The notes beneath the pieces are model-generated. The model was not told where the DNA came from. It did not search any database and worked only from the letters and a program-made list of their open reading frames with translations. From Nostoc sp. LPT (lineage in GTDB: Bacteria; Cyanobacteriota; Cyanobacteriia; Cyanobacteriales; Nostocaceae): a stretch of 41,556 nt of DNA. The first letter of the stretch is position 1; every line of letters starts with the position of its first letter. The stretch is from positions 1 to 41,556 of the forward strand of contig NZ_JABXKF010000039.1 in assembly GCF_017115165.1 (NCBI RefSeq). The letters run 5' to 3'. Both the position numbers and the translations under genes were made by a program. Positions 21,841 to 33,774 of this stretch are shown here, piece by piece.

Positions 21841-23172
21841 ATGCTCCTAGATTTAGAAAGATTTTATCAGGCTTGCAATCCCAGCAGACCTCTAATTATA
21901 GGAAACCCTAGCGATCGCAGGTACTATATCGATTTTGCTGCGGTGCGGGGTGGCAAAATTATCGAAGCTTTGCAGCGCACGATCGCTAGAATATCGCCAG
22001 ATATCCCAACTTGTCAACTATTTACAGGACATCTCGGTTGTGGAAAATCAACAGAGTTGTTGCGCCTGAAAGCTGAGTTAGAAGTGGAGCAATTTCATGT
22101 AGTTTACTTTGAGTCTACCCATGTCTTAGAAATGGCAGATGTGGATGTGACTGATATTTTGTTAGCGATCGCTGGACAGGTGAGTGAAAGCCTAGAAGCG
22201 ATGAAAATTAGGCTCAAACCTACCTACTTTACCAAGTTGTTTGGTGAAGTTGTAGATTTTCTGCAAACGCCAATTGACCTTGGCTTAGAAGCAGAGTTAT
22301 CTGTAGGGATTGCCAAAATTACCGCGAAAACTAAAGAAAGTCCGCAATTAAGGCGGCGGTTAAGAGATTATCTCGAACCGCGAACCGCAAATATTTTACA
22401 GTCAATTAATCAAGAATTACTAGAACGTGCCACCAAGGAACTGAAAGCCAGGGGTAAAAAAGGACTGGTGGTGATTGTTGATAACTTGGATCGAGTTGCA
22501 ATTCGACCTTTACCATCGGGGCGATCGCTGCCAGAATATTTATTTATTCAGCGGGGCGAACAGTTACGCAAACTGAATTGTCATGTAGTCTACACTATTC
22601 CTCTAGCCTTGACTTTCTCCAACGATAGCGCCGAACTTCAGCATCGTTTGGGGGGAGGAGTTGCACCAAAAGTTTTACCGATGATACCTGTGCGTTTGCG
22701 CTCTGGCGAGATTTTTTTGCAAGGGCTAGCAATGATGCGGCAAATGGTGCTAGCTAGAGCTTTTCCAGACATTTTACCTAGCGATCGGTTAGGCTTAATT
22801 ACAGAGGTGTTTGATAATCTGGAAACCTTAGATCGATTGTGCCTAATGAGTGGCGGTCATGTACGCGACTTACTAGGTTTACTGTTTGACTGTCTGCGAG
22901 AACAAGATCCACCCTTTGACCGGGAATGTGTTGAATTGGTAATTAGAAGACAGCGGGATTACCGAGCTAACGCTATCGACCCCCATGAGTGGGAACTAAT
23001 CTTTCAGGTAGTGCAACAGCAGCGAGTTAGAGGTGATATAGAATACCACACCCTTTTGCGAAGTCTATTTGTATTTGAATACCGCGATCATCAGGGAGCT
23101 TGGTTTGCCGTCAACCCAGTTTTAGCGGAGACAGAAAAATTTAAATCATGGTTGAACGACACGCACAAGTAG
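21841..23172 (+). CDS. AAA/STAND-like ATPase
   Basis: A 443-residue P-loop ATPase: Walker A GHLGCGKSTELLRLK (about residue 60), Walker B VVIVDNLDR (about 212-220), then an arginine-containing segment and a C-terminal winged-helix-like part (LFVFEYRDHQGAWFAVNPVL). The N-terminus (LERFYQACNPSRPLIIGNP) resembles ATPases fused to or paired with larger NTPases in cyanobacteria. It overlaps the next gene by 25 bases in another frame, so the two products probably act together. No enzyme activity beyond nucleotide binding is visible; a role in signalling or defence is inference from the partner and the neighbouring genes. Confidence 0.82.
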   Translation: MLLDLERFYQACNPSRPLIIGNPSDRRYYIDFAAVRGGKIIEALQRTIARISPDIPTCQLFTGHLGCGKSTELLRLKAELEVEQFHVVYFESTHVLEMADVDVTDILLAIAGQVSESLEAMKIRLKPTYFTKLFGEVVDFLQTPIDLGLEAELSVGIAKITAKTKESPQLRRRLRDYLEPRTANILQSINQELLERATKELKARGKKGLVVIVDNLDRVAIRPLPSGRSLPEYLFIQRGEQLRKLNCHVVYTIPLALTFSNDSAELQHRLGGGVAPKVLPMIPVRLRSGEIFLQGLAMMRQMVLARAFPDILPSDRLGLITEVFDNLETLDRLCLMSGGHVRDLLGLLFDCLREQDPPFDRECVELVIRRQRDYRANAIDPHEWELIFQVVQQQRVRGDIEYHTLLRSLFVFEYRDHQGAWFAVNPVLAETEKFKSWLNDTHK

Positions 23173-26100
23173 ATATTAGAGCAGCTAACGAGCGGGCTTT
23201 AAGGAGTTTGGGGAGAGCAATTACCCTTTCTAACGGTCAATTTTCCCTGGTTTTGGTGTGCTGCAATTATCGAGTTTTGCAAGAGCAAATGCTGCAACGA
23301 CTCGAAGAACTCTCAGGAGTACACCACATTCAAAAGGTAATTCTGCCGCATAATGCTAGAAGTCTTTACACAAGTATTCATTTACAACTCCTAACCGAAG
23401 CTAATCCGCCATCGGCGTTGATGATTTTGGGTTTAGAGTCAGTTGATGGACTCGACGATTTACTGAGGTCTATCAATCATATTCGGGATGAATTTCGCAA
23501 ACGCCACCCATTTCCGATGATTTTGTGGGTGAATGAGGAAATATTGCAAAAGATAGTCCGTTTAGCACCAGATTTTGCTAGTTGGGCGGCGACACCGATT
23601 CGGTTTGAAATGACAACTCAATCACTGCTGCAATTTCTGCAACAGGAAACTGACTCTTTATTTGCTACGGTGTTAGCAAACGATGCTGCACAACACCAAC
23701 CTCCTCAAGTTGCCAAGCATTATTCCACTGTCGAGCAAGTCTGGGAGCATAGTTATGAACTCCACTTTGCGATTAAAGAGTTGCACAATCGTGGTATTAC
23801 CTTAGAGCCAGAACTATACGCTAGTTTAGAATTTGTTTTTGGTCTAGATAATTATATTAGCGATCGCATCAATACAGGTTTAAGCCATTTTCAGCAAAGC
23901 TTGCAGGTTTGGCAAAAGTTGGCAGAGACAGAGGAAGCAGGGGAGCAGGGGAGCAGGGGAGCAGGGGGAGATGAGGGGGTATTTTCTTCGTCTACGCCTC
24001 CTAATCGCCCATCTACCTTACTGCTGCGACAGGGAATTTTGCTGTTTTATATTGGGTTGTGTTATTGCCGTTTTGCAGAACAAAATCAAATAGAAAACCG
24101 CCGCCATTGGTACACTGCTAAATCTTATTTTCAGCAGTGCTTGAATATTTTGCAGGTGGCTGGGCGTTTAGATATAGTTGCTGGATTTATTAATCAACTC
24201 GCTGAGGTTTTGCAATATCTGCAAGAGTGGGAAGAATTGCAAACAGTTGCTCAAAAGTCTCTAGAGTTACATCAAACTTATGGTACTCAAATCCAACTAG
24301 CTTGTGACTACGGTTTTCTGGCGCAAGTAGCTGTACAGCAGTCGCGGTGGGTACAGGCGAGTATCTTAGCACACGTATCACTGCTGAAATTAGGTGAGGC
24401 GCAAAAGCAGAATGACCCTTATAACTGCTTATTTCCATTATTATTGGCGCAAATTTACTATTTAGTGTTGGCGAAAGCACAGCGAAATTTAGGTGAGCTA
24501 GTAATCGCTCATGAATACTTAGATAAGGCAACAAAAGAACTGCCAGCAGCCTTAGAAAGCAGTGCCCATCAATACGATGCCCATCGTTATATTCGCTTAT
24601 TGCGGCGACTGCGATCGCTCTACTTTGAAGAAGGGCGATATTTAGAAGCCTATTACATTCGCCAAAAACGGCGTTCTGTTGAGCAGCAGTATGGTTTTCG
24701 GGCTTTTATTGGTGCAGGGCGGTTGCAACCTCAAAGACAGGCGACAAATCCAGCATTAATGTCACCTTCTGGAAGTAGTAGCGTTGCTCTAGAAATTGCG
24801 GCTTCTGGTCGAGAGCGTGATATTAATAACTTAATTGGCAGAATTAGCCGCGCCGATCAAAAATTGACAGTGATTCACGGTCAATCAGGGGTGGGTAAGA
24901 GTTCTACCGTCACGGCGGGTTTAGTTCCAGCGCTGCAAAATCGAGCCATTGGCGATCAAATAGCCGTGCCTGTGGTACTGCAAGTTTATACCGATTGGGC
25001 ACGGGAATTAGGGAAATCTTTAAGTGAGGCGATGTCTAGTGATGCATCCCTGGCGATTTACGCTGATATTAAGCCAGAAGCAGCCATTGAATCGGAGGCT
25101 TTACCTTACTCTGGTACACCGTTCACCATTGGTAGAATTTTACAACAACTCCAAGAAAATGCCGATCGCCATTTGATCACAGTTTTAATTTTTGACCAAT
25201 TTGAAGAATTTTTCTTTGGTTATAGCGATCGCAATCAAAAACAAGAGTTTGATAAATTTATTAGCGACTGCCTCAATATACCCTTTGTTAAAGTCATCCT
25301 TTCCTTGCGAGAAGATTATTTACATCGTTTATTAGACTTTAAACATCTCTCGGCACTGGAAGCGATTAATAATAATATTCTCGATAAGCATATTCGCTAC
25401 CAGTTAAATAACTTTTCGCCGGAATATGCTAAAGCAATTATCCGAAAATTGACGGAGCGATCGCAGTTTAATTTAGAACCTGCTTTAATTGATGCCTTAA
25501 TCGAAGATTTATCAACAGAATTTGGAGAAGTCCGCCCGATTGAATTACAAGTTGTGGGAGCGCAAATTCAAGATGAACGAATCACTACACTAGAAGAATA
25601 TCAGCCATATAGACCCAACAAACTCATCGAACGATATATTAAGGAACTGATTAAAGACTGCGGCACAGAAAATGAACGAGCCGCTTTACTCGTCTTATAT
25701 TTATTAACAGATGAAAGCAACAACCGACCTTTTAAAACTCGTGCTGAGTTAGCGGCGCAGCTAGCAGAGTTAGAAGATGCTGACAAATTAGATTTAGTAT
25801 TAGAAATTTTAGTGCGCTCTGGTTTAGTAGTTCTCTTTCCTGATGTACCAGAACGCTATCAACTGATTCACGATTATTTAGTAAACTTGATTCGCTACCT
25901 ACAACAACAAGAATCGAGCTTACAGGTACAACTAAATCAGTTGCGCTACAAAGTAGAACAAAGTAAAGCTGAGATTGAGCGACTGAAGAGTGAACTTAGT
26001 CAAAATAAGCAGCGTTCTAAATTGGTAGCTCCTCATCCCCAACAGGGATTAGATTTATTAACAGAATTGCGAGAATTACACAAGCGGGAAGAATTAAGTC

Positions 26101-28286
26101 AGTTAGAAATTGAGCAATTACGAGCTGAACTTAAAGAAAAAGAGTTAACAGCTAAACTTGCAGAAAGTCAAAAGAAACAAAGACTTAGTGAAGCTCAATT
26201 AAATCGTTCGTTAAAAATTGCTCTAACCGCTTCCGTTCTCGCCATCTTGGGATTAAGTGTTTCCATAGTAACAGCAGTAGATAGTGAAATTAAAACCCTC
26301 AGTGCATCCAGTGAAGCCCTCTTTGCCTCGCAAAAAGGTATTGATGCTTTAAAAGAAGCTTTAAAAGCAGGGAGAAAATTACAACAAACAGTCTGGGTAG
26401 ATTCCAATACAAGAGAGCAAGTACAGACGGCGCTTTATCAAGCAGTTTCCGGGGTAAGAGAATATAATCGCTTGGACGGGCATATATCTGGGGTAAATAG
26501 TGCTACATTCAGCCCCGACCGCTCTTTAATTGCCTCAGCTAGTGCGGATACTACAATCAAACTCTGGCATCTCGATGGTAGCTTAGTCAAAACCTTGTCG
26601 GGGCATGAAGATGTGGTTAATAGCGTCAGTTTCAGCCCAGATAGTCAAATCATTGCTTCCGCCAGTCAAGACAAGACGATAAAACTGTGGAGTCGAGAAG
26701 GTCAACTGCTTGCTACCTTATTAGGGCATCAGGGTGTAGTGAATAGTGTTAGTTTCAGCCCAGATGGCCAGATTATTGCTTCGGCGAGTACAGACAAAAC
26801 AGTGAAACTGTGGAGTCGGGATGGTAAGCTGCTCAAAACTTTGCAGGGACATAATGGTGCAGTCTTGAGTGTCGCTTGGTCAATCGATGGTCAAACCTTA
26901 GCTTCCGGGAGTGCTGACAAGACGGTGAAACTGTGGAGTCGGGATGGTAAGCCGCTCAATACCTTACAGGGACATGAGGATGCAGTGAAAAGTGTAGCTT
27001 GGTCGCCCGATGGGAAAGCGATCGCATCTGCTAGTTTAGACCAGACAATCAAGCTGTGGAATCTGGAGAGAAAGCTACTGCGAACCTTATCAGGTCATAG
27101 TGCTGGAGTTACCAGCGTCAGTTTTAGCCGTGATGGTAACACGATCGCTTCCGCAAGTACTGATGAGACAATCAAACTCTGGAGTTCTGAAGGTGTGTTG
27201 CTGGGAACCCTGAAGGGACATAATAATTGGGTTAACAGTGTCAGCTTCAGCCCAGATGGTCGCACCCTTGCTTCCGCTAGTCGGGACAAAACTATTAAAC
27301 TTTGGCATTGGGATGATGTGTTACTGCGAAAGCCGAAAGCCGATAATGATGACTGGATAACTAGCATCAGTTTTAGCCCAGGCGATCGCACCTTGGCAGC
27401 AGCAAGCCGAGACAAAACTGTAAAACTTTTTAGTCGAGACGGTAAACTACTCCGTATATTGACGGGGCATCAGGGTCAAGTTTGGGGTGTGGCTTGGTCG
27501 CCCGATGGTCAAGTGATTGCCTCGGCTAGTAAAGATAAAACAGTAAAACTTTGGAGTCGTGACGGTAAACTACTTAACACCTTACAGGGTCATAATGATA
27601 CCGTTTTGAGTGTAGCTTGGTCGCCTGATGGTCAAGTAATTGCCTCCGCTAGTAAAGATAAAACAGTAAAACTTTGGAGTCGCAACGGTAAACTACTTAA
27701 CACTTTGCAGGGACATCAAGAAGCGGTGAATTGGGTAAGCTTTAGCCCAGATGGCAAGTTGCTAGCCTCAGCCAGTGATGACAAAACCGTGAAAATCTGG
27801 AGTGTAGAGGGTAAATTACTATACACATTAACTGGTCATAGCCGCCGGGTAAATGGGGTTGCTTGGTCACCTGATAGTCAAAGCATTGCCTCAGTTAGCA
27901 TTGATAGCACAGTGAAGATTTGGAATCGAGACGGTAATTTGCTAGATAATCTCACGGGCGATGGCGATAGTTTTATCAGTGTCAGTTTTAGCCCCGATGG
28001 CAAAACTCTGGCAGCTAGCAGTGATGACAAAGTGAGGATTTGGAACCGAACAGGGACATTGCTGATTGCTTTGAAAGGTGATAAGGATGAGTTAACCAGC
28101 GTCAGTTTCAGCTATGATGGCAAGACTCTGGCTGCGGGTAGTGGTAATGGGACAGTAATTTTTCGAGATTTAGCAGATATCCAACTGGATAAATTACTAG
28201 CACAGGGTTGCGATTTGCTACATGATTATTTGCAGACTAATCAGAAAGTAATGAAAAGCGATCGCACCTTGTGTTCTGGTAGGTGA
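23148..28286 (+). CDS. Giant STAND NTPase with TPR-like region, membrane segment and 14 WD40 repeats
   Basis: A 1712-residue multidomain protein. In order: an N-terminal degenerate NTPase-like part (about 1-200, with ALMILGLES and FPMILWVNEE but no Walker A), a helical TPR-like region (about 210-540), a STAND-type NTPase (Walker A GQSGVGKSS near 577, Walker B LIFDQFEEF near 681), a coiled-coil stretch (about 915-1015), one hydrophobic segment (about 1023-1043), then 14 WD40 repeats (about 1107-1680), enough for two seven-bladed propellers. The layout is that of a signalling scaffold that senses a ligand through the WD40 part. A repeat-encoded Gly/Glu-rich insert sits near residue 262-285. It overlaps the AAA ATPase gene. 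Such proteins are frequent in Nostoc-like genomes and often suspected in defence or regulated death. Confidence 0.88.
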   Translation: MVERHAQVDIRAANERALRSLGRAITLSNGQFSLVLVCCNYRVLQEQMLQRLEELSGVHHIQKVILPHNARSLYTSIHLQLLTEANPPSALMILGLESVDGLDDLLRSINHIRDEFRKRHPFPMILWVNEEILQKIVRLAPDFASWAATPIRFEMTTQSLLQFLQQETDSLFATVLANDAAQHQPPQVAKHYSTVEQVWEHSYELHFAIKELHNRGITLEPELYASLEFVFGLDNYISDRINTGLSHFQQSLQVWQKLAETEEAGEQGSRGAGGDEGVFSSSTPPNRPSTLLLRQGILLFYIGLCYCRFAEQNQIENRRHWYTAKSYFQQCLNILQVAGRLDIVAGFINQLAEVLQYLQEWEELQTVAQKSLELHQTYGTQIQLACDYGFLAQVAVQQSRWVQASILAHVSLLKLGEAQKQNDPYNCLFPLLLAQIYYLVLAKAQRNLGELVIAHEYLDKATKELPAALESSAHQYDAHRYIRLLRRLRSLYFEEGRYLEAYYIRQKRRSVEQQYGFRAFIGAGRLQPQRQATNPALMSPSGSSSVALEIAASGRERDINNLIGRISRADQKLTVIHGQSGVGKSSTVTAGLVPALQNRAIGDQIAVPVVLQVYTDWARELGKSLSEAMSSDASLAIYADIKPEAAIESEALPYSGTPFTIGRILQQLQENADRHLITVLIFDQFEEFFFGYSDRNQKQEFDKFISDCLNIPFVKVILSLREDYLHRLLDFKHLSALEAINNNILDKHIRYQLNNFSPEYAKAIIRKLTERSQFNLEPALIDALIEDLSTEFGEVRPIELQVVGAQIQDERITTLEEYQPYRPNKLIERYIKELIKDCGTENERAALLVLYLLTDESNNRPFKTRAELAAQLAELEDADKLDLVLEILVRSGLVVLFPDVPERYQLIHDYLVNLIRYLQQQESSLQVQLNQLRYKVEQSKAEIERLKSELSQNKQRSKLVAPHPQQGLDLLTELRELHKREELSQLEIEQLRAELKEKELTAKLAESQKKQRLSEAQLNRSLKIALTASVLAILGLSVSIVTAVDSEIKTLSASSEALFASQKGIDALKEALKAGRKLQQTVWVDSNTREQVQTALYQAVSGVREYNRLDGHISGVNSATFSPDRSLIASASADTTIKLWHLDGSLVKTLSGHEDVVNSVSFSPDSQIIASASQDKTIKLWSREGQLLATLLGHQGVVNSVSFSPDGQIIASASTDKTVKLWSRDGKLLKTLQGHNGAVLSVAWSIDGQTLASGSADKTVKLWSRDGKPLNTLQGHEDAVKSVAWSPDGKAIASASLDQTIKLWNLERKLLRTLSGHSAGVTSVSFSRDGNTIASASTDETIKLWSSEGVLLGTLKGHNNWVNSVSFSPDGRTLASASRDKTIKLWHWDDVLLRKPKADNDDWITSISFSPGDRTLAAASRDKTVKLFSRDGKLLRILTGHQGQVWGVAWSPDGQVIASASKDKTVKLWSRDGKLLNTLQGHNDTVLSVAWSPDGQVIASASKDKTVKLWSRNGKLLNTLQGHQEAVNWVSFSPDGKLLASASDDKTVKIWSVEGKLLYTLTGHSRRVNGVAWSPDSQSIASVSIDSTVKIWNRDGNLLDNLTGDGDSFISVSFSPDGKTLAASSDDKVRIWNRTGTLLIALKGDKDELTSVSFSYDGKTLAAGSGNGTVIFRDLADIQLDKLLAQGCDLLHDYLQTNQKVMKSDRTLCSGR
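23936..23985 (+). repeat. Purine-rich repeat inside the STAND-WD40 gene
   Basis: Three near-perfect copies of GGGGAGCA followed by GGGGGAGATGAGGGG, in frame. The encoded piece reads EEAGEQGSRGAGGDEG between two TPR-like parts. It matches the purine half of the intergenic elements at 3245 and 5431. Confidence 0.8.
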
Positions 28287-28349: not shown

Positions 28350-28628
28350 ATGCAAAAAATTGTATCCGAGCCAAAAATAATGATGGGCAAACCTGTCATT
28401 TCAGGAACTCGTATTACAGTTGAATTAATTCTCGAAAAGCTTGCTGCTGGTGAAACACCTCAGCAAATACTAGAAGCGCATCCGCGACTTAGCGATGAAG
28501 GAATTAAAGCAGCTTTGGCATTTGCGGCTCAAGCTTTGCGTTATGATGTGGTTTATCCAACGATTGAGAAAGCTTTTGCTCCTATCCCCCTTAGACATCA
28601 TGTTTCATCCACCATCTCTAAAATCTGA
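28350..28628 (+). CDS. DUF433 antitoxin-like protein
   Basis: A 92-residue DUF433 protein: IVSEPKIMMGKPVISGTRITVELILEKLAAGETPQQILEAHPRL is the family signature. DUF433 proteins usually pair with a downstream DUF5615 PIN-like toxin on the same strand, forming a toxin-antitoxin module. None follows here, and the last 18 or so residues (PIPLRHHVSSTISKI) look like read-through into the convergent gene, which it overlaps by 31 bases. It may be an orphan remnant. Confidence 0.85.
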   Translation: MQKIVSEPKIMMGKPVISGTRITVELILEKLAAGETPQQILEAHPRLSDEGIKAALAFAAQALRYDVVYPTIEKAFAPIPLRHHVSSTISKI

Positions 28629-29092
28629 TTGTATAGAGTTGAAGATACTCTAAACTCCGATGTTGCAATTAGAGCATCAACTAACGGCTTGATAGCCACA
28701 ATTAGATTTTGGTGTTTAGCCTCAACCAAAATACCTAGCAACCCAGTAATCCTTAGCCCCAAGCGATTGGCTTCTGCTCTGCCGCGACGCTCATCAATCA
28801 ACAGTAAATCGGCATTGAGTTCTAGGGCAAGGGCGATCGCTTCAGATTCTCCAGGATCTAGCCTGACTTCGCGCTGAAGCCGTTTAACTGCATTACGATT
28901 TACAACTTGTCTGACTTCAAGCCAAGAAGCAGCTTGTACTTCGAGCGTTCCTGCAACGGGAGGATCAATGTCTGCAAGTTCACGATAAACCGCTTCAGGA
29001 AGCATAACTTGTTTGTAGAGTTGGGGCAAAAGGTGCAAGTGCTGAATTGCTGCCAAATTTGTGATGACAGATGTATCGCTGATGACAATCAA
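28598..29092 (-). CDS. DUF3368 PIN-like toxin
   Basis: A 164-residue PIN-domain protein: MIVISDTSVITNLAAI gives the first catalytic Asp, REVRLDPGESEAIALALE the acidic pair and LLIDERRGRAEA the next Asp. PIN toxins are metal-dependent RNases that cut tRNA or rRNA. Its start overlaps the UPF0175 stop by four bases (ATGA), the standard layout of a UPF0175/DUF3368 toxin-antitoxin pair. The 3' end overlaps the convergent DUF433 gene. Confidence 0.9.
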   Translation of the reverse strand: MIVISDTSVITNLAAIQHLHLLPQLYKQVMLPEAVYRELADIDPPVAGTLEVQAASWLEVRQVVNRNAVKRLQREVRLDPGESEAIALALELNADLLLIDERRGRAEANRLGLRITGLLGILVEAKHQNLIVAIKPLVDALIATSEFRVSSTLYNQILEMVDET

Positions 29093-29337
29093 AGCCGCCC
29101 CAACTCCCGTAGGTTCTTCAAGTCAAGTTCAAAGTCTTCAACGTCGTAAGAATAGAGAGGGATATTTCGCTGTTTCAGGAGTTGGCGAAAGTCATTTGGC
29201 TGCATCTGTGCTAGTTGGCTGGCATAGCCCAGTGTTAAACGACCTGTTTGGAACAAGTATAGTGCAATTTCTTGGCGAAACTCACTCTTAGTAAGCCCAG
29301 ATGCTTGCAGGATTTCGTCTGAAATTATGACACTCAT
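29089..29337 (-). CDS. UPF0175 antitoxin-like protein
   Basis: An 82-residue UPF0175 protein with the family pattern SDEILQASGLTKSEFRQEIALYLFQTGRLTLGYASQLAQM and a C-terminal acidic tail (VEDFELDLKNL). It is the likely antitoxin to the PIN protein it overlaps. The short N-terminal helix-turn-helix-like part could bind the operator. Confidence 0.88.
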   Translation of the reverse strand: MSVIISDEILQASGLTKSEFRQEIALYLFQTGRLTLGYASQLAQMQPNDFRQLLKQRNIPLYSYDVEDFELDLKNLRELGRL

Positions 29338-29540: not shown

Positions 29541-30287
29541 ATGACTATTGCCAAACTATCCGAACTAGGCATTACTCATCTTCCTGACCATACTGAGTTA
29601 CCAGAGTCGGATGGAACTTTTGTGAAAAACTTTCAAGAACATCCACAAAGTATACTCCTAACTGACTCCGTTCAAGGTATATTACAGCAAATTCACTCGG
29701 ATAAGCAGTATTGTATTGGTCAAGATTGTGGCATTTACTGGCGTTTGACCGAACCACCTGAACGCGGTGCCGAAGCACCAGATTGGTTTTACGTCCCGAA
29801 TGTTGCACCTATGTTAAATGGTCAGTTTCGACGTTCCTATGTGTTGTGGCAAGAATATGTCGCTCCCCTAATTGTACTGGAATTCGCTTCTGGGGATGGT
29901 TCAGAAGAAAGAGATAATACTCCAATTACTGGTAAATTCTGGGTATACGAGCAAGCAATCCGCGTACCTTTTTATGGCATTTACGAATTTAGCAAAGCTG
30001 CGATTGAGGTTTATCACTTAGTTGATGGTAGGTATCAGCACCTCACTGCTAACGAACGTGGACACTATGAGATTTCCTTGATGGGTGTCGAATTGGGCAT
30101 TTGGGAAGGACAGTATGGAAACACTACAGCGCCTTGGTTACGTTGGTGGGATGCACAGGGAAATTTATTACTAACTGGTGAGGAAAAATCGCAGTTATTA
30201 ACACCCCAATTAGAAAAAGAACAGCAAAAAGCCCAGCGTTTAGCAGAACGCTTGAGACAGCTTGGGATAAATCCTGATGAAGTTTAA
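29541..30287 (+). CDS. Uma2 family protein (DUF820)
   Basis: A 248-residue Uma2 protein: GAEAPDWFYVPNV (conserved Asp), YVAPLIVLEFASGDGSEE (Glu in strand), PFYGIYEF, and the coiled C-terminus RLAERLRQLGINPDEV. The N-terminus (ELGITHLPDHTELPESDG) is longer than in the Uma2 at 9476. It belongs to the same architecture as those at 8694 and 12452. Function beyond the nuclease-like fold is unknown. Confidence 0.9.
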   Translation: MTIAKLSELGITHLPDHTELPESDGTFVKNFQEHPQSILLTDSVQGILQQIHSDKQYCIGQDCGIYWRLTEPPERGAEAPDWFYVPNVAPMLNGQFRRSYVLWQEYVAPLIVLEFASGDGSEERDNTPITGKFWVYEQAIRVPFYGIYEFSKAAIEVYHLVDGRYQHLTANERGHYEISLMGVELGIWEGQYGNTTAPWLRWWDAQGNLLLTGEEKSQLLTPQLEKEQQKAQRLAERLRQLGINPDEV

Positions 30288-30405: not shown

Positions 30406-30459
30406 TTACACTCTTGAGTAATTGTACAGGATAACGTTGCTGTCTACCAAGACGGTCAT
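30406..30459 (-). pseudogene. Truncated PIN toxin (17 codons)
   Basis: ATG at 30459 overlaps the AbrB stop (ATGA) and encodes MTVLVDSNVILYNYSRV before TAA at 30406-30408. LVDSNVI is the first strand of a VapC-like PIN domain with its first catalytic Asp, after which the gene is lost. The break lies next to the duplicated STAND-WD40 end at 30356-30385. Confidence 0.8.
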
Positions 30460-30707
30460 GGATTGTCGTGGCTACGAGTGAAGGTCATAATTTGGTCAGT
30501 GGTGAGGTTTCCAGCAGCGCAACCCCGCATGGTGTCAATCCAGGTTGAGATTTTATCGGTAGGTTGTATTTTCTTGAGGTAGAGGCGATCGCCTTCGATT
30601 TCAAACGCTAATTCTACGTCAGGAGAAATGTTAAGCACCTCTCGGATTTCAGGAGGGATGGTAATCTGATCGTCAGGTGTAATCTGCATAGTGTGTTTGT
30701 TGTTCAA
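30456..30707 (-). CDS. AbrB/MazE-like antitoxin
   Basis: An 83-residue DNA-binding protein with the swapped-hairpin AbrB pattern: MQITPDDQITIPPEIREVLNISPDVELAFEIEGDRLYLKKI. The C-terminal arm (ISTWIDTMRGCAAGNLTTDQIMTFTR) is the toxin-binding type seen in VapB antitoxins. Its toxin gene is reduced to 17 codons directly after it, so it is an orphan. Divergent from the Argonaute gene across a 211-base gap, it could affect that promoter, which is inference. Confidence 0.85.
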   Translation of the reverse strand: MNNKHTMQITPDDQITIPPEIREVLNISPDVELAFEIEGDRLYLKKIQPTDKISTWIDTMRGCAAGNLTTDQIMTFTRSHDNP

Positions 30708-30918: not shown

Positions 30919-32964
30919 ATGATTAATCTTTATCGCTGCATACGCTATCCCCGACATACATTAGTCAGTTTCCAAGGTACAGCAGAGGATCTTACGGCTT
31001 TAAGGAACTTATTACCCTTTCAGATTAAAGAATCAGATTCTGAAAAAATTCCTTTTGGTGAAAGTGGATATTTCATTTATATCAAGGGTGTAAATCGGGA
31101 AATATATGAACATGAAATCTTGAAGTATTTTCATCAAGCATTCTGTCCACCATTTATTGAAGTTTTATGTTTTAAAGGTGTTATAGGTAATAGACCGATT
31201 CAAGAAAATTGGTCATCTGAAAGATTAAATCGTTTTTTGAGCAAAATTATTCGACAATATTTTGAAACTCAAGGATATCTTATTGAATATGCTAACTTTG
31301 GATATAAAGTATATCGCAAAGAGTATCAAAATCTAACTTTTGGGCTACAAGCATTTGAAGGAATTTCTTATCGAATTAAAATTGACAAAAACTTTTCCAT
31401 TTTGTTACAGATAGATATAGTATATAAATTTCACCTTGACGATCAGCTTATCACTCAGAAAAATTTACTGCGAAATTTTGCTAATCGACCAGATGTAATA
31501 GCCAGTGTAAAAAACTTTGTAACTCGTGATACTGATGAACTATTTAAATTGGCTAGAAGATTTATTAAAAAACTTGATGAAATATATGAATTAACCAATA
31601 TCTGCTCTTTCAGTCCAGAACCTGCAAACGCACATTCACTTGGAATGCAAACTTGGATTTGGCAGCATCATTTTCCCATTGAACTAGAGATAGGGAGTGG
31701 GAAGATAGTTCCTTTAGCAAGTCATATCTCCAAAGAAAATTATGGACTATATATGACACCGATAATTCCTATAGCGCTAATGTTATTTTATCCTTCTAAA
31801 GAGGTTAGCAGATTGGGGTCTTTATCTAATTGGGTTAACATAATTAATCTGATAAAAAATACCCTGAGAAGTTTGCTAGGTGCAAATGTAGATGTACCAA
31901 TATTATTAAAAGAATATCCTCTACCAACAAAAGAGAATCAGGAAAATGATATAGTTGCGGAATCGGAAGAGTTTCTTCGCAGATTTGGAAACATTACTCC
32001 TCTATCTTTAATAATTTCTCCACCTAAAGTTACTAAAGATACAACTGATAGTGAATTACAGGTATTAAGTTATTTTACTGGTAAATTAGATAAAAGTCTA
32101 CGAAAGCTTAAAGGATATACAGTAACCTTGAGCTGGGATAGTTTAGCTATCAAAAGTCAACAGCAGTACATTGTAGAAAATGCCCTTATCAAAGGACTTA
32201 TGGTATTAGGAGCAACTCCTTGGCGAATTTTGAATATTGCTCATAACAATAATGAGAGCATTGATGATATTTGTTTCATAGGAGTTGATGTTAATAGTTA
32301 CAAAAAACCTGCTCCTATAGTTGGGGGTGTTATACTTGATGCCTATGGAATATTGAAAGGGCAACACATAGTAAAACTTTCATCTCCAAATGGTGACAGC
32401 ATTGACAGTGATTCTTTCAATTTATTAATACGTAAACTAATTGAACATTTTCATGCTGCTACTGGACGACGACCAAAACATATTATAATTCACCGAGATG
32501 GCTTAATTGGAAATGAAACTTCAAAAATAATTAATTGCTTTGAAGAAGATTACATAAATTATGATATTCTTGAGATAAAAAAGAGTGGTTCTCCTCGTAT
32601 TAGGCAGAAAGGAAATATTGCAGGTACACCGATTAGAGATATTACTGTAGGAAGTGAAGAAAATGCTACTGCTCATTTGGTAAATACTCTTGTTTTTCGG
32701 GAATATTTATCAGTTGGAAAATCCATTTTACCAGCACCAGAGTCTATTACAATATGTCGTGTCATAGGTAATACATCAATTAAGATTCTTGCAGCGCAAG
32801 TTCATGCTTTGAGTCGTGCATGTTACAGTTCATATCGTCGTACAGAAAAACTTCCTGCTACCATAGTTTATGCAGATGCTCTAGTTAGCCATGCGTCATT
32901 AAAAAATGAACAAAAAGATTTTGGACAACCAATTAATTCAAGAAGTCGTTTAAATTGGTTGTGA
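30919..32964 (+). CDS. Long prokaryotic Argonaute (pAgo)
   Basis: A 681-residue Argonaute-like protein. Known long pAgos use short guide nucleic acids to bind or cut invading DNA. The C-terminal third fits a PIWI domain: GVDVNS (D457), NGDSID (D493), HIIIHRDGLIG (D527) and, near the end, ATIVYADALVSH (D653). The spacing 457-493-527-653 agrees with the catalytic tetrad of Thermus Argonaute, but the usual Glu finger position is Asp here. A MID-like part precedes it (YIVENALIKGLMVLGATPWRI); the expected YK and GxPxQ pattern looks altered. The N-terminal half (about 1-300), where N and PAZ would be, is diverged. The gene is clearly AT-rich versus neighbours, suggesting transfer. A Uma2 gene follows after 186 bases. 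Confidence 0.85.
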   Translation: MINLYRCIRYPRHTLVSFQGTAEDLTALRNLLPFQIKESDSEKIPFGESGYFIYIKGVNREIYEHEILKYFHQAFCPPFIEVLCFKGVIGNRPIQENWSSERLNRFLSKIIRQYFETQGYLIEYANFGYKVYRKEYQNLTFGLQAFEGISYRIKIDKNFSILLQIDIVYKFHLDDQLITQKNLLRNFANRPDVIASVKNFVTRDTDELFKLARRFIKKLDEIYELTNICSFSPEPANAHSLGMQTWIWQHHFPIELEIGSGKIVPLASHISKENYGLYMTPIIPIALMLFYPSKEVSRLGSLSNWVNIINLIKNTLRSLLGANVDVPILLKEYPLPTKENQENDIVAESEEFLRRFGNITPLSLIISPPKVTKDTTDSELQVLSYFTGKLDKSLRKLKGYTVTLSWDSLAIKSQQQYIVENALIKGLMVLGATPWRILNIAHNNNESIDDICFIGVDVNSYKKPAPIVGGVILDAYGILKGQHIVKLSSPNGDSIDSDSFNLLIRKLIEHFHAATGRRPKHIIIHRDGLIGNETSKIINCFEEDYINYDILEIKKSGSPRIRQKGNIAGTPIRDITVGSEENATAHLVNTLVFREYLSVGKSILPAPESITICRVIGNTSIKILAAQVHALSRACYSSYRRTEKLPATIVYADALVSHASLKNEQKDFGQPINSRSRLNWL

Positions 32965-33024: not shown

Positions 33025-33150
33025 CTTCTCTTACCCTACCTCAAGCTGTTGTTTCAAAACTACGGCAGGAAAACCAGCCAGGACTTATAGACAAAGCTGT
33101 ACATCTTGGTAGCATTGAGTGAAGTACCCGTCAGCAAGGGAGCGAGGGCG

Positions 33151-33774
33151 ATGTACGCAACCGTCACACAACCACTGACTTTTGAAGAGTTTCTTGCCTG
33201 GGACGATGGTTCAGGCAGAGAGTTTGAGCTAGCGGATGGGATTCCCGTACCATTATCAGAACCCAATGCAAATCATGAGGATTTGATCGAGCGACTGTGT
33301 GCTTACTTAGAAAATCACTGCCAAGAAAATGACCTGCCTTACGTGTTGCGCCAGTCCAAGCAGGTTCGGCTCAAAACAGCACTAGGCGAAAAGGAAAAAA
33401 GCCGGAAAGCAGATATTGTCATATTTGCAAGAGTTGAATGGCAGAGGATGAAAACTAGCTCTAGTTCTGCTGCTGCATATATTCCACCACCCGCAATCAT
33501 TGAGGTCGTTAGCAACAACTGGAAGGACGACTATCTGACAAAACTTGCTGAATATGAGGACTTGGGCGTTTTCGAGTACATCATTGTGGACTATGCTGCT
33601 TTTGGTGGCATTCGGTTCATTGGCTCTCCCAAGCAGCCAACCATTACAATCTACCAACTTGAAGATGCAGAATATTTACCCCCAAAAGTTTTTCGAGGGC
33701 AGGATCGAATTGATTTTAGATTGTTTCCGAACATTCCCTTAACGGCTGAACAGATTTTTGCAATGAGTCGCTGA
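33151..33774 (+). CDS. Uma2 family protein (DUF820) downstream of the Argonaute
   Basis: A 207-residue Uma2 protein of a different subtype: MYATVTQPLTFEEFLAWDDGSGREFELADGIPVPL, then the YVLRQSKQVRLKT strand, KADIVIFA (Asp), PPPAIIEVVSNNW (Glu) and YLTKLAEYEDLGVFEYIIVDY, giving the PD-(D/E)XK-like core. ATG 33151 has GAGG just before it; an upstream in-frame start at 33106 adds non-conserved residues. Its position suggests a possible helper of the Argonaute, but a repeat lies between them and no shared operon is shown. Confidence 0.88.
   Translation: MYATVTQPLTFEEFLAWDDGSGREFELADGIPVPLSEPNANHEDLIERLCAYLENHCQENDLPYVLRQSKQVRLKTALGEKEKSRKADIVIFARVEWQRMKTSSSSAAAYIPPPAIIEVVSNNWKDDYLTKLAEYEDLGVFEYIIVDYAAFGGIRFIGSPKQPTITIYQLEDAEYLPPKVFRGQDRIDFRLFPNIPLTAEQIFAMSR

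Follow-up and report, generated by a model that had tools for sequence, protein, structure and literature searches.

In TtAgo, the Argonaute of Thermus thermophilus, pairing of the guide with its target brings the glutamate finger in and completes the metal site (PMC10772731), and the canonical pocket for the guide is formed by R418, K422, Q433, and K457 (PMC9360449). A catalytic tetrad of the type DEDX is taken as the sign of an active prokaryotic Argonaute (pAgo) (PMC6299218), and a survey of cyanobacteria counted as predicted active only those pAgos that combine a PAZ domain with DEDX, 20 of 160 (PMC10653904). Here, we describe an Argonaute gene of the cyanobacterium Nostoc sp. LPT, which lies on contig NZ_JABXKF010000039.1 (positions 1 to 41,556; this whole stretch of 41,556 nucleotides is what we call the window). 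Its product has Asp at the place of the glutamate finger and belongs to a family in which the guide pocket of the MID domain also differs from that of TtAgo. We consider the chances evenly balanced that this is a long pAgo with a DDDD tetrad (D457/D493/D527/D653) that would function as a guide-directed nuclease and that likely has a non-canonical MID guide pocket.

Identity of the Argonaute gene

The gene occupies positions 30919-32964 of the plus strand, stop codon included, starts with ATG, and encodes 681 amino acids (aa) without an internal stop; the host genome assembly comprises 8.6 Mb in 190 contigs. The protein matches the Pfam Piwi profile (PF02171, E 1.2e-9, which passes the curated cut-off), the PADLOC model PprPIWI (1.1e-44; a literature search for this name found no paper) plus several pAgo models, and the PDB profiles of CpAgo (8e-29), CbAgo (8e-26), KmAgo (1e-18), and TtAgo (6e-13). 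Residues 244-681 of an AlphaFold model match TtAgo 310-685, AfAgo, and human Ago. Pfam, the PDB profiles, and the model match thus all point to the RNase H-fold PIWI and the MID domain that mark a prokaryotic Argonaute, and the similarity to PIWI on which the first-pass annotation of the locus had made its assignment depend is found in both Pfam and PDB searches. Short pAgos have neither N and PAZ domains nor a tetrad; here, about 240 residues precede MID and every tetrad position is acidic. As to placement in the long-A or long-B group, the top profile matches are CpAgo, CbAgo, and KmAgo, and the trees described below were built without any sequence identified as long-B. The host carries two different Argonautes: the second, on another contig (C104), has about 763 aa and the usual Glu finger (locus L058).

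Asp at the Glu-finger position

Three PIWI aspartates align with TtAgo D478, D546, and D660, as expected from the clear motifs seen on first reading: D457 (32287-32289), D527 of the RDG motif (32497-32499), and D653 (32875-32877), all on the plus strand. The numbering is that of the Argonaute from a Thermus thermophilus plasmid, which was aligned and numbered as TtAgo, and the residue roles are those given for TtAgo in PMC7015924 and PMC9360449. At the place of the Glu finger, TtAgo E512, the window protein has D493 (32395-32397, plus strand). Pairwise alignments match D493 to the finger Glu of CpAgo and of KmAgo, and profile and MAFFT alignments match it to E512. The segment from the finger Gly to RDG is gapless against CpAgo and TtAgo, with a one-residue gap just upstream in CpAgo, and the finger lies 34 residues from the RDG Asp in both the window protein and TtAgo, a distance that had been correctly read from the sequence alone. 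We considered an alignment slip and rejected it, as pairwise, profile, MAFFT, and hhalign alignments all put D493 on the Glu, and one relative, P0009, has a Glu there (GEEV). A private error was likewise rejected, since Asp is common to eight of the nine family members. No true Glu was found by alignment elsewhere in the finger, and the DDDD set proposed by the first-pass annotation is reproduced in several alignments.

The family comprises at least nine members. Three relatives were obtained by full-length search, in which the 7996 candidates sharing most words were scored, and five more by a search with the MID-PIWI part of one relative (P0004); the eight are 32-50% identical to the window protein, and one (P0005) comes from a Chloroflexi metagenome-assembled genome. 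D457, D527, and D653 are each invariant (9/9), and the finger residue is always acidic, Asp in eight members and Glu in P0009. The DEDX tetrad of active long-A pAgos is therefore replaced by DDDD in eight of nine proteins, including the window protein, and P0009 has DEDD.

For comparison, nine fetched pAgo loci were set aside (the gene itself, remnants, and short pieces); the remaining 86 all contain a pAgo open reading frame (ORF), and 67 of these are distinct. Both D478 and D546 are kept in 63 of the 67, and the finger is Glu in all 63. In the other four, which have no Glu finger, at least residues one to three of the tetrad are gone. An earlier, overlapping set had Glu in 29 of 30. Most pAgos in these sets are cyanobacterial; two are haloarchaeal, one is from Thermus, and one is viral, so that part of pAgo diversity is covered. 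The single pAgo found on viral contigs (L092) has a Glu finger, and plasmids yielded distant pAgos only, none covering 80% of the query. The haloarchaeal plasmid pAgos L094 and L095 are directly followed by phospholipase D family genes.

A tree built with 13 cyanobacterial pAgos groups the nine members in one clade with support of 100/100, and they form one clade again when six nearer outgroups are used. P0009 is placed inside this clade (83/91), and a tree with the Asp members as one clade is not rejected (approximately unbiased test, p-AU 0.195). The inner order is poorly supported, and a single gain of Asp with P0009 basal and a single gain followed by a return to Glu would both be compatible with the sequences.

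The guide pocket in the MID domain

The first-pass annotation had also suspected a changed MID pocket. The change is there, in residues other than those proposed (Y417-W435), where the PW is also present in CpAgo and KmAgo: the place of the pocket Gln is taken by Y400, or by V402 in one alignment, and that of the last Lys by V429. Y400 (32116-32118, plus strand) stands at the place of TtAgo Q433 and is Tyr in all nine members versus Gln in 13 of 13 references, and hhalign agrees. The largest alignment puts V402 instead at the strand Gln, and no member has Gln at either place; in columns 398-403 of this alignment, Gln occurs in 63 of 63 other pAgos versus one of nine members, in which it comes from the preceding loop. 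V429 (32203-32205, plus strand) stands at the place of TtAgo K457, a position with Val in seven members and Ala in two and with Lys in 59 of the 63 other pAgos. Four residues ahead of it, one turn earlier in the same predicted helix, is a new invariant lysine, K425 (32191-32193, plus strand; 9/9 members versus 0/63 others). Relative to the canonical (Y/H/R)KQK motif, the family has thus lost the strand Gln in all nine members and has Val or Ala at the K457 position in all nine.

Six of 307 MID-PIWI columns pass the test for family-specific switches: 400, 425, 470, 493, 574, and 656. Among them, D574 (32638-32640, plus strand) is invariant in the family (9/9), versus Gly in 13 of 13 references. 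On this basis, the guide pocket and the active site look as if they had changed jointly rather than by scattered drift, with a function that is predicted only. Alignments of the nine members extend the view from a single gene, as it was first described, to two family-wide changes, at the finger and in the pocket, and the linked pocket change makes the family a candidate for a new guide class.

Domain layout and structure model

The protein can be divided, with approximate limits, into an N-terminal lobe (residues 1-243, comprising N, L1, and L2; 30919-31647), a MID domain delimited by the AlphaFold model and the matches to TtAgo and AfAgo (residues 244-445; 31648-32253), and a PIWI domain delimited by Pfam, PDB profiles, and the model match (residues 446-681; 32254-32961), all on the plus strand. 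The N-terminal lobe is probably without a full PAZ. Pfam finds no PAZ in any of the nine members. Residues 203-656 align strongly with residues 293-714 of pAgo L005 in hhalign, and residues 130-172 align weakly with TtAgo 132-174 (probability 43-56%), as do residues 101-171, very weakly, with L005 108-180 (5-9%). About 30 residues are left for the PAZ region versus about 112 in L005, a count whose L1 anchor is weak (43-56% with Thermus, 5-9% with L005). A PAZ domain is thus likely to be missing or strongly reduced.

The AlphaFold model has a mean predicted local distance difference test score (pLDDT) of 71.7 and a predicted template modelling score (pTM) of 0.54; the finger blocks reach about 78-80, and most of residues 588-609 are below 50. 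An additional N-terminal domain, suggested by the match of model residue 79 to TtAgo 7, was set aside. Residues 1-120 may instead be an ordinary N domain, because hhalign places residues 130-172 on TtAgo 132-174.

Possible activity and alternative explanations

Our preference is for a nuclease that still works, in altered form, rather than for an inactive protein; activity is a prediction. A Siwi mutant with the Glu finger changed to Val keeps reduced slicing (PMC7015924), so the finger is helpful there but not strictly needed, and the DDDD tetrad also occurs in Cr-AGO1 of Chlamydomonas, for which its authors expected slicing. In the proposed mechanism, guide-target pairing would swing the finger loop in, and D493 would then take the part of the TtAgo Glu, helping to keep water and metal in position at site B. 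Asp keeps the charge on a side chain that is one carbon shorter, and cutting might be slower, more Mn-dependent, or tuned to another strand geometry. Y400, K425, and R436 would replace the canonical contacts, and the protein may prefer another guide 5' end or cut in another register, as the pocket changes suggest by analogy with MpAgo and PliAgo; a 5'-OH, or a 5'-phosphate bound without the usual metal, are possible guide ends. With PAZ reduced or missing, the grip on the 3' end of the guide would be loose. Like other pAgos, the protein presumably defends its host against incoming DNA or RNA. A bolder version, to which we give tentative and limited credence, is that the family, found in cyanobacteria, Chloroflexi, and metagenomes, is a lineage of its own, with an all-Asp cutting site, a new Y400/K425/R436 pocket, no PAZ, and a guide end, register, or metal unlike those of any Argonaute studied so far.

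Several observations weigh against a functional, redesigned enzyme. In about 30% of the MID-PIWI columns, at least eight of the nine members share one letter, and conservation of D493 on its own is not rare. Placement of the strand Gln varies by up to two residues between alignments, which give no reliable placement for the first two positions of the pocket motif (Y/H/R and K); Y385 and K389 of the window protein have the correct spacing for them and are not family-conserved. The C-terminal WL is fixed in all nine members, and in most pAgos the C-terminal carboxyl helps to bind the pocket metal (PMC9360449); the pocket may therefore be less changed than inferred. The AlphaFold model is of middling quality, and its full-length fit to known Agos is poor (Foldseek TM 0.3-0.4; VIA root-mean-square deviation about 10). 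Finally, remnants in related genomes show that the Argonaute gene can be lost.

The alternative that survives best, although we regard it as rather doubtful, is a guide-binding Argonaute that no longer cuts, with an Asp too short for the tetrad and a role in target recognition only, possibly on behalf of a nuclease partner, for which the Uma2 protein encoded downstream would be a candidate. Drosophila Piwi, whose finger is non-acidic (DVDK), is an inefficient slicer, with the caveat that its fourth residue also differs (PMC7015924), and inactive pAgos are more often located with nucleases (PMC6299218). A Uma2 gene (Pfam) indeed follows the Argonaute gene (33106-33774, plus strand), and in Desmonostoc the remnant is followed by a stretch that is 91% identical to this Uma2 gene over 412 bases. 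Loss of cutting sits poorly with three invariant tetrad aspartates and an acidic finger in all nine members, and the four comparison proteins that have no Glu at the finger have also lost at least the first three tetrad residues. A partnership with Uma2 is weakened by a second Uma2 gene upstream in the window (29541-30287, plus strand; Pfam) and by the surroundings of the Calothrix remnant, where none of the five listed ORFs of at least 90 aa resembles Uma2 by eye.

An ordinary active pAgo, in which either Asp or Glu would serve, the altered MID residues are neutral, and behaviour is that of KmAgo or CpAgo, seems unlikely to us. The Glu of P0009 within the same family, the Glu fingers of the closest solved relatives, and the fixed C-terminal WL would all agree with it. 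It leaves unexplained why Asp is absent from the finger of all 63 other pAgos with both neighbouring aspartates and why the pocket Lys is Val or Ala in nine of nine members together with an invariant replacement Lys, which is not expected from drift. A decaying gene with D493 as an early hit is highly improbable and largely refuted by the family-wide Asp. In its favour, Desmonostoc, Calothrix NIES-4105, and one further relative yielded nothing but remnants; against it stand an ORF intact over 681 aa and an Asp common to full-length relatives down to 32% identity.

Gene neighbourhood and history in Nostocales

Searches of 217 genomes of the family with the window protein gave matches in nine, and searches of 388 genomes of the order gave matches in 25; in both cases, only the host genome has the whole gene, and within the family the rest are remnants or distant pAgos. 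In Desmonostoc geniculatum, the remnant covers residues 520-535 and 611-681 (the latter 96% identical) and lies just after a gene that reads as rplL. Calothrix NIES-4105 has a C-terminal remnant (86% identity over 44 residues) and, elsewhere, a weak N-terminal match with two stops (E 9e-4; assigned to this genome, G747, by matching coordinates), and a further genome (G379) has a C-terminal remnant with an internal stop. Since such remnants persist in Desmonostoc, Calothrix, and G379, close relatives of the gene probably had a wider distribution among Nostocales in the past and were lost several times. A profile match with two stops in genome G240 was not counted as a remnant, since the window protein did not match G240. 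At locus L002 (8001-8260), an Argonaute remnant with an internal deletion stands behind an rplL-like gene, and a pair resembling HigA/HigB comes next, on the opposite strand (names by eye). The AT-richness of the gene noted on first reading is confirmed by its GC content, 32.8% versus 43.2% in the rest of the window (19% at third codon positions, GC3), and would fit horizontal gain.

Upstream, a MazE-like antitoxin gene (30456-30707, minus strand; Pfam and ORF list) has a stop that overlaps the ATG of a 17-residue stub with a PIN-toxin-like start by eye, and the two (30406-30707, minus strand) look like a broken toxin-antitoxin pair. Further upstream, tandem UPF0175 and DUF3368 genes (28598-29337, minus strand; ORFs of 82 and 164 aa) match Pfam, UPF0175 over the whole profile, and the tandem matches the PADLOC candidate system PDC-S70. 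The first-pass description of toxin-antitoxin remnants thus fits the MazE-like gene and its stub and does not extend to the UPF0175 and DUF3368 ORFs. A defence island is weakly supported: the surroundings include toxin-antitoxin and Uma2 genes, but none of the neighbours stands out as an operon partner. The C-terminal part of a 1,712-aa ORF (23148-28286, plus strand) reads by eye as a run of WD40-like repeats.

Comparison with known systems

Among the literature matches listed, which comprise open-access papers only, the one DDDD Argonaute is that of Chlamydomonas and no prokaryotic case occurs, and we found no report of E637D in Argonaute or of E48D in RNase H in the open-access literature. 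A survey of pAgos notes, in the parts that treat variants, MID* and PIWI* types and long pAgos without PAZ, and those parts do not name the combination of DDDD with a changed pocket (PMC6299218).

The closest solved proteins, KmAgo, CpAgo, and CbAgo, align with the window protein throughout MID-PIWI, including the finger loop, the RDG, and the Asp at the fourth place, and share the PW after the MID helix. They differ in their Glu finger, in the PSQ strand of CpAgo and CbAgo, and in length: they exceed the window protein by 56-70 residues, and their aligned part is preceded by about 100 additional residues (CpAgo 287 versus profile position 186). TtAgo (DEDD) has three of the four catalytic residues and the 34-residue spacing in common with the window protein, in which E512 is replaced by D493, Q433 by Y400, and K457 by V429, and in which the PAZ part is likely missing.

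Two groups with altered pockets offer further parallels, each compared by description. In the MID-OH group of MpAgo, which uses 5'-OH RNA guides, polar contacts to the 5'-phosphate are lost in favour of hydrophobic residues and group-specific lysines occur (PMC6299218); the window protein likewise has hydrophobic or aromatic pocket replacements. MpAgo keeps its Glu finger, E482 (PMC5435312), and is absent from the 20 PDB profile matches of the window protein up to E 10. The PliAgo group (RHSY pocket) has a neutral residue at the K457 position and a pocket changed group-wide (PMC9360449). It differs in not using the C-terminus for the guide (PMC9360449), as opposed to the fixed WL end of the window family, and in its Glu finger, E592 (PMC10772731). 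Chlamydomonas Cr-AGO1 has the same DDDD tetrad; it is a eukaryotic AGO, represented by one gene, with slicing inferred by its authors, and the 5'-phosphate residues are conserved in all three Cr-AGOs, unlike in the window family (PMC6668577).

A filter based on DEDX, with or without PAZ, would class the window family as inactive. Should the family cut, the DEDX criterion excludes too much, and an RNase H-type site made up of aspartates alone is functional in a naturally occurring pAgo. P0009, with its Glu, is the family's natural control, through which the contribution of the Glu finger is directly testable.
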